From Pseudobdellovibrionaceae bacterium (GTDB taxonomy: Bacteria; Bdellovibrionota; Bdellovibrionia; Bdellovibrionales; Bdellovibrionaceae), in the NCBI GenBank assembly GCA_019637915.1, contig JAHBUV010000001.1, positions 744,001 to 808,000 of the forward strand: 64,000 nucleotides of DNA, in the 5' to 3' direction. Positions 18,631-59,200 of the stretch are shown in pieces; the first letter of the stretch is position 1; every line of letters begins with the position of its first letter. Under the pieces are notes generated by a model. It made no database searches, was not told the origin of the DNA, and was given only the letters and a program-made list of their open reading frames with translations. The position numbers were made by a program, and so were the translations under genes.

Positions 18631-19755
18631 CTACCTCCTGCGACCGAACAGACCCCCATGTCCTTCGCCGACCTTGAGGTCGTGAAGCTTGGCGATGTCT
18701 TTTAACAGTCTCGCCTCTTCTTTCGAAATTGTCTCGGGAAATTTCACGTTCACCCGGTAGTGAATGTCGCCCCGACGTTTGCCGCGCAGGGAGGGCAATC
18801 CCTGAGACTCTAAAGAAACCTCTTCGCCGGCGTTCGTTCCCGCCGGCACATGCAGCTTTTCCGTGCCCGTCACCGTCGGGACTTCGATCTCTCCCCCCAG
18901 AAGCATCTGCACGTAAGGCACGGACAGCTCCGCGTAAAGGTCATCGCCGTCCCTCTCGAATTGGGGGTGGTCCTTGACGCGGATCTCGACGTAGAGATCG
19001 CCGTTCGGGCCACCCATGTAGCCGCCCTCGCCCTCGCCGTTCACGCGCAATCGTGTGCCCGTGTCCACGCCGGCCGGGATGCTGATGCGCAGACGGTGAT
19101 GTTTCTCAAGGCGGCCCCGGCCCGAGCATTTCTGGCAGGGGTTCTTGATCATCTGACCCGTGCCTTCGCAGGTCGGGCACGGCGAAGCCATGGTGAAGAA
19201 GCCCTGCGATCTCACCACCTGCCCGCTGCCATGGCAGGTCGTGCAGGGAACCGGTTTCGAGCCTTTTTCGGCGCCGCTGCCGTGGCACTCGCCGCAGGAT
19301 TCGTCGGCGTCGAACTCGATCTCGCGGTCCATGCCGCTGATGACGTCTTTCAATTCAATCTCGATCAGGTAACGCAGATCCGCGCCCCGGCGCGGGGCTT
19401 GCGGACGGCGACGCTGGCTCGCCCCTCCGGCGCCGGCCATGCCGCCGAACAGATCGCCGAAGATGTCGCCGAAATTCTGGAAGATGTCCTCCATGTTCTG
19501 GAAGCCGCCCCCGCCCATACCGCCCTGCCCGAAGGCCGCGTGGCCGAAGCGGTCGTAGCGGGATTTCTTTTCCGCATCGCTCAGGATGTTGTAGGCCTCG
19601 GCGGCCTCCTTGAATTTTTCCTCGGCCTCTCGATTGCCGGGGTTCTTGTCCGGATGCAGCTGCATCGCCAGCTTGCGGTAGGCTTTTTTGATGGTGTCCC
19701 CATCGGCATCACGGCTGACACCGAGGATTTCATAATAGTCGCGGCGGGTGCTCAT
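18631..19755 (-). CDS. dnaJ: Chaperone DnaJ (Hsp40)
   Basis: Class I J-protein of 374 residues that stimulates DnaK ATPase and delivers substrates. The J domain starts [11 protein letters not shown] and carries the HPD triad in [10 protein letters not shown] Gly/Phe-rich linker with [15 protein letters not shown] follows. The zinc-binding region has four CxxCxGxG repeats ([32 protein letters not shown]), then the C-terminal beta domains with [15 protein letters not shown]. The ATG at 19755 gives the standard start; the ribosome site is weak. It heads a dnaJ-unknown-dnaK cluster. Confidence 0.97.
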
Positions 19756-38811: not shown

Positions 38812-39588
38812 CTAGAACGAATACCCCAGATGGAGTTTCACCGCCGAAAAGCGCGGGAAATAAGACACCAGGTTCATGGCGCTCCGGGCGTCGCTGCCGT
38901 CATCGGCGGTGCCGGCTTCATCGATGAAGGCGGCTTTGCGCGAAATGACCACCAGGGGTTGGGCCCAAGAAAGCCAATCCACGCCGAACGTCAGGCCGTT
39001 TTTCAGAGTCCAGCGATTGCCCAATCCCACGGTTCCCCCGAAGGCCTCGAGCCTCATGGCATCGATGGTGGGCGTGCCGGCGACCCGCGAGAGCATGGCA
39101 TCACCGATCTGAATCGTGAATTTCCCGTAGTGCACGCCCGCGAACAGATTGAAGCTGTTGGTGCCCAGGTACTTGCGCCACAAAAAGCTGTAACGCTGCT
39201 CTTCCAGACCGCCGAAGCGATCCAAAAAACCCGGCGGCTTGATGCTGCCCGAAAGATATTCCAGTTCCCACGAGGTGTTCTGATCGCGGTTTTTACCGAC
39301 GACCAGCCCGAACTTGCTGGGCAGAATCATATCCAGGTAAGAGTACTCGACCGCCGCGAACCACCCGCCGCGCGCCCGCGACGCCCGGGCCTGAGTCAGC
39401 CGTTCATCCACGCGAACCACGGCCTGATCGATTTTCTCCCCGGCTTCTTTGGCCGTCTCTTTCACGCTCTCCGCCACGGTCTCCACCGCCGGCGGCGCTT
39501 CTTTTGAAGCCTCTTTCGACGCTTCCACCGGAGCCGCCATCACCGAACCAGCGAACATCATCCCCACAACCAGCAAAAAATATCTCAT
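38812..39588 (-). CDS. Predicted outer-membrane beta-barrel protein
   Basis: A 258-residue exported protein. The signal peptide MRYFLLVVGMMFAGSVMA is followed by a repeat-like KEASKEAPP and a heptad region (EKIDQAVVRVDERLTQARAS), then a beta-rich region with alternating aromatic residues that ends LHLGYSF. The terminal phenylalanine is the usual Bam-complex signal of outer-membrane proteins. The family is not recognised. The ATG at 39588 follows a GGTGG site. It is convergent with mutS2 and separated from the next gene by a gap of 460 bases. Confidence 0.65.
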   Translation of the reverse strand: MRYFLLVVGMMFAGSVMAAPVEASKEASKEAPPAVETVAESVKETAKEAGEKIDQAVVRVDERLTQARASRARGGWFAAVEYSYLDMILPSKFGLVVGKNRDQNTSWELEYLSGSIKPPGFLDRFGGLEEQRYSFLWRKYLGTNSFNLFAGVHYGKFTIQIGDAMLSRVAGTPTIDAMRLEAFGGTVGLGNRWTLKNGLTFGVDWLSWAQPLVVISRKAAFIDEAGTADDGSDARSAMNLVSYFPRFSAVKLHLGYSF

Positions 39589-40048
39589 CCCGCCACCATA
39601 GCCCCCCACCCCTCCCTTGACCAGCGCCATTTCCCCGACATCCCCCCTCTCCTCTCCTCTCTTTCCCCCTCCCCAACCAAAAAAAGAGACCGGCAGCAGC
39701 CGAGGTCTGTGCGGGCGGGGCGGCCCTCCGATCGGGACCTCCCGCAAGCCGGAGGCGTTGGCCGCCAAGGGCGGCCATGCGGGCCTGAGGGCAGGAGCCC
39801 GTGTCCCGATCGGAGGGCCGCCCCGCCCGCACAGACCGTTCGCTCCATCTCCCTCCCTCCCTCCCCCCCTGTCATGCCAATTCCGTCCCCTGTCACATCC
39901 CTCGACGTCCCACAATAAGATCGCCCCACACCGAGACACCCCCACTCCGCCAAGCCCCCGCGATCACACCCTTTTCCCCTCCGTCTCAGCCTGAAATATG
40001 GCACCGCCCTTGCTCCATCCTCAGTCATCAAACAAAGGGGAGGCCCCA
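39589..40048. other. Gene-free gap with pyrimidine tracts around a long palindrome
   Basis: No convincing gene. The left part (39600-39680) and the stretch after the palindrome (39845-39875) are dominated by C and T on the plus strand. The centre holds the 134-bp inverted repeat listed separately. The right end contains the ribosome site GGGGAGG of the lipoprotein gene. Promoters for the divergent genes must lie here, but I cannot place them. Confidence 0.6.
39704..39837. repeat. Long palindromic element with 35-bp perfect arms
   Basis: Bases 39704-39738 and 39803-39837 are exact reverse complements over 35 positions with no mismatch. The 64-base loop holds a smaller hairpin, GGCCGCC-aag-GGCGGCC, flanked by CCCGCA and TGCGGG, so the whole element can fold into one extended cruciform or RNA stem. 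It has no T-run and no flanking direct repeat I can see. It could be a dispersed palindromic repeat or a miniature mobile element. Confidence 0.85.
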
Positions 40049-40813
40049 ATGAAAAACAGAATGAATCTGAATCCCACTCAGAAAAAATTGAGCATGGTGG
40101 TTCTGATGCTGGCCGCCCTGGTCTTGAGCGGTTGCGGGGCCGCGAAATCGACGGACAGCGCCGACCTTTCCTCCCGGGTCACGGACACGAGCAACACCGC
40201 CCGCGCCTGGTCCTACTGCAACGAGGGTTTGAGCCAAGGTCAGTCTTTCAAGTTGAGCCTTTATTCCTACACGGAAAACAGCCAGGTGCGGAACGACCTG
40301 ATGTACGCGATGCCGAGCGCCCTGCCCTCGGACTTCACCACCAGCAATGATTACTTCCAGTTTTACCGCTGGCAAGCGAGCGCCGGTTCGGCCACTTATC
40401 TGGACACGTCGCCTTTGTCCTTCTCGATCCTGAACCCTTCGACCGGCGCCACCATCCTGTCGACGCGCACGGCCCTGCGCTGGAGCGATGTTTCGGGCCT
40501 GGCGGCGCAGATGGGCGTGAGCACGCCGAAGGATTTCTTCCGCCGCGTCTGGATCATCATCGACTTGAAGGATCCGTCGGCGCAGTTCGACGCCTTGATG
40601 ACGGTGCTGTATCGCAACGACAACAGCCAACGCGACCACAGCAATATGTTGCTGCCGATCTTTGACGCCAATCCGGCCGGTTACGCCACGGAACCCGGCG
40701 GCGGCGCCCGCCCGAAAGTGCTGCGCGACATCCATCCCTTCAACGGCACCAGTTGGACCACCGAGGCTTACAAGAGCGGCGCCACGTCCCTCTGCGCCGC
40801 CTTCAGCAGCTAG
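40049..40813 (+). CDS. Predicted lipoprotein of unknown function
   Basis: A 254-residue lipoprotein. A positively charged start (MKNRMNLNPTQKK) leads into a hydrophobic stretch ending ALVLSGC, a good lipobox, then a Ser/Thr/Ala-rich mature part with DFFRRVWIIIDLKDP and conserved-looking aromatic residues. The family is not recognised. The ATG at 40049 follows GGGGAGG. It precedes pgi on the same strand by 38 bases. Confidence 0.75.
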   Translation: MKNRMNLNPTQKKLSMVVLMLAALVLSGCGAAKSTDSADLSSRVTDTSNTARAWSYCNEGLSQGQSFKLSLYSYTENSQVRNDLMYAMPSALPSDFTTSNDYFQFYRWQASAGSATYLDTSPLSFSILNPSTGATILSTRTALRWSDVSGLAAQMGVSTPKDFFRRVWIIIDLKDPSAQFDALMTVLYRNDNSQRDHSNMLLPIFDANPAGYATEPGGGARPKVLRDIHPFNGTSWTTEAYKSGATSLCAAFSS

Positions 40814-59078: not shown

Positions 59079-59139
59079 AAAAGGTGCCAGGTCCTGTTTG
59101 GCAATGCGATGCATTACCAAACAGGACCTGGCACCTTTT
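59079..59139. terminator. Large hairpin terminator after putA, 23-bp perfect stem
   Basis: Bases 59079-59101 and 59117-59139 are perfect reverse complements (23 bp, both starting AAAAGGTGCCAGG), with a further AATGC/GCATT stem and a GAT loop inside. Terminal AAAA and TTTT make it usable in both directions. It starts one base after the putA stop. Confidence 0.85.
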
Positions 59140-59168
59140 CGCCTTGCGCTGCGGCCCGAAAGAGGAGC

Positions 59169-59200
59169 TGGCACCTGTTAGGTGTGGCACCTGTTAGGTG
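59169..59200. repeat. Tandem 16-base repeat of a GGTGCCA-type hairpin
   Basis: TGGCACCTGTTAGGTG occurs twice in direct tandem with no gap. Each copy folds as CACCT-gtt-AGGTG. The second copy overlaps the last two codons and stop of the rhomboid gene. The TGGCACC core also forms the arm of the putA terminator 30 bases away, so the two may have a common origin. Confidence 0.75.

Follow-up and report, generated by a model that had tools for sequence, protein, structure and literature searches.

Several described systems approach the element reported here. IscB with its omega RNA (HEARO) is an HNH nuclease encoded beside a structured non-coding element. MITEs are short, dispersed palindromic sequences with no gene inside. 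The sequences of the REP/REPIN-RAYT system are also dispersed, intergenic and hairpin-forming, occur in many copies and are possibly mobilised in trans; in the available text of PMC3733652, REPs have stems of 5-13 bp with a GTAG or CGTC tag. The REP13E12/DUF222-HNH system of Mycobacterium includes a multi-copy HNH gene with a DUF222-type N-terminus, and the available text of PMC10589994 describes DUF222/HNH genes as repeats in that genus. In short inverted repeats, the arms are homogenised by template switching, according to the available text of PMC8604942, and such arm-to-arm copying keeps the arms of perfect palindromes identical.

The locus studied here is a palindrome in a 64,000-nucleotide stretch (the window) from a Pseudobdellovibrionaceae bacterium. 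The dispersed stem-loop family to which it belongs is real and new; its members have a conserved fold, and their arms are free in sequence but matched. Although the family is REP-like in its dispersal, intergenic position, hairpin formation and copy number, its arms reach 104 bp and its loop is a conserved branched fold of 50-90 nt. It differs from MITEs in that its terminal arms are not common to the copies and no target duplication was found. As in the REP13E12 system, HNH genes are located near some copies, but the hairpin family occurs without HNH in many genomes. The combination of an HNH nuclease with a nearby structured element also recalls IscB. However, no Rfam match reached the gathering score in the window or in loci L031, L032 and L033, where only plant or animal miRNA-like and lncRNA matches appeared below threshold. 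The NCBIfam IscB model matches the neighbouring HNH proteins only via their HNH stretch, at 19-40 bits and thus far short of the cut-off of 175. In comparison with template-switched palindromes, the arms here flank a conserved, dispersed core. Literature searches on Bdellovibrio repeats and ncRNA, HNH repeats, stem-loop families and palindrome evolution, judged by titles and abstract openings, turned up no description of the family.

Structure of the palindrome in the window

An inverted-repeat search identified two arms of 35 nt at 39704-39738 and 39803-39837, 100% complementary and 64 nt apart, which confirms the perfect-arm palindrome at 39704-39837 of the initial annotation. These arms are the longest of the 14 inverted-repeat pairs listed in the window (arms of at least 18 nt, partners within 300 bp). 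Folded as RNA, positions 39690-39850 reach -130.3 kcal/mol (z = -10.9), a value equalled by none of 200 dinucleotide shuffles. Four helices (P2 to P5) are possible in the loop between the arms, which themselves form the helix P1. The parts of the element and its surroundings are:

39704-39738, + strand: 5' arm of P1; inner end GAC family-wide, outer ~22 nt specific to the window copy
39803-39837, + strand: 3' arm of P1, complementary to the 5' arm at all positions; family-wide GTC at the inner end
39736-39805, + strand: conserved core with the signature GACCTCC...GAGGGCAGGAGCCCGTGTC; covariance model R1 matches at 39726-39815 with 95 bits
39741-39783, + strand: helix P2, in which CCCGCA (39741-39746) pairs with TGCGGG (39778-39783); surrounds P3 and P4; covariation in the family
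39748-39756, + strand: hairpin P3, GCC-GGA-GGC; covariation at the third pair
39760-39776, + strand: hairpin P4, GGCCGCC-AAG-GGCGGCC; pairing conserved, sequence free
39789-39800, + strand: hairpin P5, GGGC-AGGA-GCCC; invariant in the 25-core alignment; in distant members the stem varies and still pairs
39836-39849, + strand: 3' tail CCGTTCGCTCCATC, similar (CCGYTCG...) across the four best copies of the genome
39688-39703, - strand: small terminator-like hairpin with a T-run, just outside the element
likely start near 39590, - strand: outer-membrane-type ORF flanking the element
likely start near 40050, + strand: lipoprotein ORF flanking the element

The nested hairpin noted previously corresponds to P4 (39760-39766 with 39770-39776). 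The CT-rich flanking tracts are visible in the sequence, and the ORF list agrees with the two annotated neighbours, an outer-membrane-type and a lipoprotein ORF, which are divergent genes. The stem was also said to have no T-run; this is true behind the stem on the + strand, the T-run at 39688-39703 belonging to the separate small hairpin of the - strand.

Copies and distribution of the family

Blastn revealed three further strong copies in the source genome (E 6.3e-45 to 7.4e-24), whose arms measure 36 nt (97%), 33 nt (100%) and 37 nt (89%). The covariance model raised the total to six; in the two additional copies, the arms extend over 44 nt (98%) and 58 nt (97%). Across the copies of this genome, the arms measure 33-58 nt and are matched at 89-100%, unlike the short stems of REPs, and no GTAG or CGTC tag is common to the four aligned copies. 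The cores of the first four copies are 0.92-0.98 identical. Their outer 22-nt arms, 0.91-1.00 identical within a copy, reach only 0.64-0.73 from copy to copy, not far from the 0.58 that shuffling gave for genome G037, and thus do not form the shared terminal repeat of a MITE. The MITE-like trait of dispersed copies without a transposase of their own is present in the six copies.

Beyond the four copies and the opposite-strand self match, only short matches to the window arms were found in the rest of the source genome; the absence of further long matches speaks against the arms as guides to other places there. For the source genome, only two flanking genes were matched in the same-genus G037, on two contigs.

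The core signature of the family reads GACCTCC...GAGGGCAGGAGCCCGNGTC. Its part GAGGGCAGGAGCCCGNGTC was found at 39 places in the order, spread over 16 of 140 genomes and never in reverse. In the genome_contigs set, 22 of the 27 stretches with this signature are from Bdellovibrionales; the other five are without the 5' motif and the stem on inspection of sequence and fold, and look like chance. Three of the 39 places (G026:C2, G053:C56 and G053:C60) are unmatched by the model and may be truncated or unrelated.

The structure and the model are based on an alignment of 25 distinct cores with five helices (the L063 core was not used). In this alignment, 92% of the cells are paired and 20 of 32 pairs have changed on both sides. 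The covariation score of the 25 sequences is 0.506, compared with 0.126 for shuffled and at most 0.108 for slid controls, as for a structured RNA, although arm-to-arm copying could also yield such covariation.

Of 138 genomes from the order, 49 have a match to the covariance model at E<=0.1. With the cut-off at E<=0.01, six copies were counted in the source genome, 16 in G037, 60 in G137, 20 in G122, seven in G097, 21 in G108, 15 in G093, 16 in G079 and 12 in G075; these nine genomes were picked mostly for their high copy numbers, with up to 150 candidates scored per genome. The initial annotation had proposed a dispersed palindromic repeat and a genome-wide search for its copies. With six places in the source genome and matches in 49 genomes, that proposal holds; the multiple copies do not agree with the opposing case it named, a unique copy fully conserved together with its neighbours.

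The cores of G037 differ mainly in P4, both sides changing jointly. GGA is usual in the P5 loop; a CsrA-type role would be conceivable for such loops, but some P5 loops are without the motif. A long P4 insertion, with model matches of ~150 nt, was observed in L089, L090, L091, L092 and L097 (G051 and G054). G087:C18 (L104 33-320) is a tandem array in which three cores follow one another at intervals of ~101 bp. Each core has a single arm, and the closing 3' arm is found only behind the last one.

Of the 102 copies flanked by two genes, 37 separate convergent genes, 17 divergent and 48 co-directional ones. Another 12 copies are at edges, and a crude ORF caller places five inside long ORFs. Copies vary both in strand orientation and in gene context, and clusters in G122 and G137 contain both orientations.

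The signature has no exact match in IMG/VR. Distant blastn found the 134-bp element in neither phages nor plasmids, and one long G122 element with 104-nt arms was not found in phages. A viral origin, or arms derived from phages, is therefore unsupported for the two elements compared.

Matched change of the arms

The model gave 127 matches in 94 loci, representing 119 distinct copies. Arms of at least 12 bp are present in 105 of these, with a median of 37 and a maximum of 104, and 15 are perfect by the scoring used. The other 14 have shorter or no arms and include cores of tandem arrays and cores at contig ends. The longest arms were found in G122 (104 nt and 96 nt, both 100%). In nine copies of G037, arm identity is 0.95 within and 0.67 between copies, and core identity is 0.92. 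In some copies, the arms open into an internal loop at positions 5-8, counted from the core. In the outer arms, 2953 positions comprise 2784 Watson-Crick pairs, 55 G-T, 31 A-C and 83 others.

Orthologous copies were compared at 14 loci of two genomes of the genus Bdellovibrio, G016 and G018. The element is retained in both at 13 loci; at the remaining one, the G018 core was lost by a deletion between GCG repeats. The arm test covered 10 element pairs at nine of the 14 loci, with 412 arm pairs after 12 gap-adjacent pairs were dropped; omitted were the lost copy, an insert-bearing copy, one whose arms were unalignable and two that contain inserted bases. Double Watson-Crick changes were observed 32 times, against 0.99 expected if the two sides were independent. 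One-sided changes numbered 37 against 63.9 expected, a figure that assumes simple site independence, and selection for pairing would lower the one-sided count too. A looser count gave 35 double changes (1.5 expected) and 73 one-sided ones (100 expected). Divergence between the two genomes is 0.144 in the arms and 0.085 in the flanks (600 of 7082 flank sites).

The arms thus change at least as fast as their neighbours, mostly on both sides together. Compensatory evolution via unpaired intermediates should lag behind the flanks, which makes copying from arm to arm the simplest reading; selection for pairing may act as a second force alongside it. In the pair omitted for its unalignable arms (L268 1992-2076 and L278 near 19608-19700), flanks and core do align. 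This looks like wholesale arm replacement, for which drift alone is a poor explanation.

Absent sites and mobility

At one Bdellovibrio locus, the element is present in G003 (which we take to be strain HD100), G006, G009 and G010 and absent in all five aligned relatives (G024, G015, G022, G014 and G007); G020 and G021, outside the alignment, also have both flanks. The intergenic DNA of the absent site is too diverged to show a junction or to separate gain from loss. No clean insertion junction or target-site duplication was found at any absent site, these being too diverged or partial deletions. The pair L265/L300 was ruled out as a clean empty site, as it represents a deletion inside the element at the GCG repeat, and this deletion in L300 means that loss occurs as well.

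In one G016 copy, a 70-nt look-alike lies within P3 (L277 17302-17386; 14.3 bits, E 0.007 in 601 bases) and is absent from the G018 ortholog, which is a hint of mobility. The retention of 13 of 14 sites represents a slow turnover for a transposing element. Y1_Tnp (PF01797, at 1e-5) is encoded in 10 of 14 element-bearing genomes and missing from G037, G122, G108 and G079; among the listed matches, it forms one close pair with an element (G137:C36), which does not fit a RAYT. The suggestion that the palindrome might be a miniature mobile element is thus partly borne out. The scattered distribution and the site absent in relatives point to movement, whereas the arms are unshared between copies, no target-site duplication turned up and two related species retain most of the sites.

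Proximity to HNH endonuclease genes

In G137, 36 of the 57 listed elements (of 60) have an HNH match no more than 1 kb away, although only 3.2% of the genome is that close to one; a simple binomial puts P at about 1e-39. Conversely, 20 of the 34 listed HNH genes of G137 have an element within 1 kb. The same proximity applies to two of the six elements of the source genome (with a weak HNH match of 1.2e-7 left out of the count) and to none of the five listed elements (of 16) in G079. HNH entries were merged or removed by hand where matches were split, leaving 34 from 43 in G137 and 17 from 32 in G079. In G137 and the source genome together, the nearest elements point outward from the HNH gene in 17 of 22 cases (P = 0.017). 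The HNH units of G137 have some 1.1 kb in common, of which ~250 bp lie upstream.

The neighbouring proteins have an HNH domain, and one of five shows a weak DUF222 match which, together with the available text of PMC10589994, hints faintly at a link with REP13E12. Multi-copy HNH genes with a DUF222-like N-terminus were observed at L174 5884-6906, L175 5549-6595, L031 1263-2489 and L033 3552-4733. DUF222-like HNH genes, with 43 matches in G137 and 32 in G079, are apparently repeats themselves.

Across the order, HNH matches are found in 37 of 49 element-bearing genomes and in 40 of 89 element-free ones (P = 0.0006, kinship uncorrected, assuming that the 138 genomes of both searches are identical). 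At 1e-15, 12 of the 49 have no match, including G003, G006 and G010. G037 (16 elements) and G122 (20) have one strong HNH match each, none adjoining listed elements. Given G003, G006 and G010 without matches and G122 with one, HNH would act as a partner in some lineages at most, and in those the DUF222-like HNH endonuclease is the best candidate.

Proposed mechanism and alternatives

The analysis establishes the family itself, the fold and copy numbers of its members and a two-sided change of the arms that outpaces the flanks. On this basis, we favour, with a probability of roughly 0.58, a dispersed MITE-like stem-loop that is recognised via its folded core and whose arms are homogenised by copying one from the other. 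This element of the Bdellovibrio order would consist of a conserved branched core (P2-P5) upon the long helix P1. The core would be the part recognised, with the arms required, if at all, only as a duplex. The working form may be RNA or single-stranded DNA. Copies would spread in trans, in the manner of MITEs. After placement, the arms would drift fast and jointly, one arm probably serving as template for the other by template switching at the hairpin, so that complementarity persists.

Transcription of the + strand would give another account of the fold: a family of structured ncRNA genes or elements, in which the core binds a protein and selection for RNA pairing keeps the P1 duplex. P2, P3 and P4 covary as structured RNA does, GGA is usual in the P5 loop, and nearly all sites are retained between the two Bdellovibrio species. 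In the outer arms, G-T exceeds A-C by 55 to 31 (P = 0.013), or by 30 to 13 when counted by element (P = 0.014), which is what folding of the + strand as RNA would predict. Strand-biased C-to-T change would, however, produce the same excess, and wobble is scarce (55 of 2953 outer positions). Arms that match perfectly over 96-104 nt exceed what RNA pairing requires, double changes outpace flank divergence, and strand orientation and gene context are inconstant. A scan limited to sigma-70-like promoters found none in 39550-40060, and none of eight attack-phase sRNAs of HD100, in the available text of PMC3627812, lies at the two element places of G003. We consider an RNA gene rather unlikely. A hairpin acting as transcription terminator or insulator, with the structure shared by chance, is highly implausible despite the preference for convergent over divergent gaps (37 versus 17, P = 0.009). 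No T-run follows the stem, the 35-nt stem forms no terminator-like site, the window copy is located between divergent genes, and termination needs no sequence-conserved branched core.

The HNH gene itself might be what moves, with the hairpins as its ends or cargo and lone copies as remnants. The frequent pairing and shared 1.1-kb unit in G137, the outward orientation of the elements, the excess of HNH in element-bearing genomes and the repeat nature of DUF222/HNH genes in the available text of PMC10589994 would all agree with this. Such a unit nevertheless appears distinctly improbable in view of G037 and G122, where numerous elements stand apart from a single strong match, of G003, G006 and G010, which carry elements with no match at 1e-15, and of G079, where no listed element is near HNH. 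Also improbable, in our estimate, is a spread as core plus one arm, the other arm being rebuilt. In that case, the folded core, together with the invariant closing pairs GAC/GTC, would keep the core's 3' end in place as a primer, and the 5' arm would be copied into a fresh perfect 3' arm with every move, the HNH nuclease providing the nick. If true, this would account for arms that are arbitrary in sequence yet perfectly matched over as many as 104 nt, for the one-arm-per-core arrays of G087:C18 and for symmetric indels.

The favoured stem-loop with arm-to-arm copying would make the family a natural test case for hairpin copying and spread, as it separates two usually mixed things, a fold that is conserved and recognised and arms whose sequence is free. 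Several natural replicates per genome make the rate and mechanism of arm-to-arm correction measurable in bacterial long inverted repeats. The family is also a warning that stem covariation need not imply selection on RNA. For predatory bacteria, it represents a candidate new mobile or RNA family, with the HNH nuclease as a testable partner.

Other inverted repeats

Another strong inverted repeat (35 nt, 91%) is located at L281 4621-4698, ~110 bp before one of the source-genome copies. In the window, a second, unrelated palindrome was found at 59079-59107 and 59111-59139 (AAAAGGTGCCAGGTCCTG...), with arms of 29 nt (97%) only 3 nt apart, and a partial arm related to it lies at 59159-59179.
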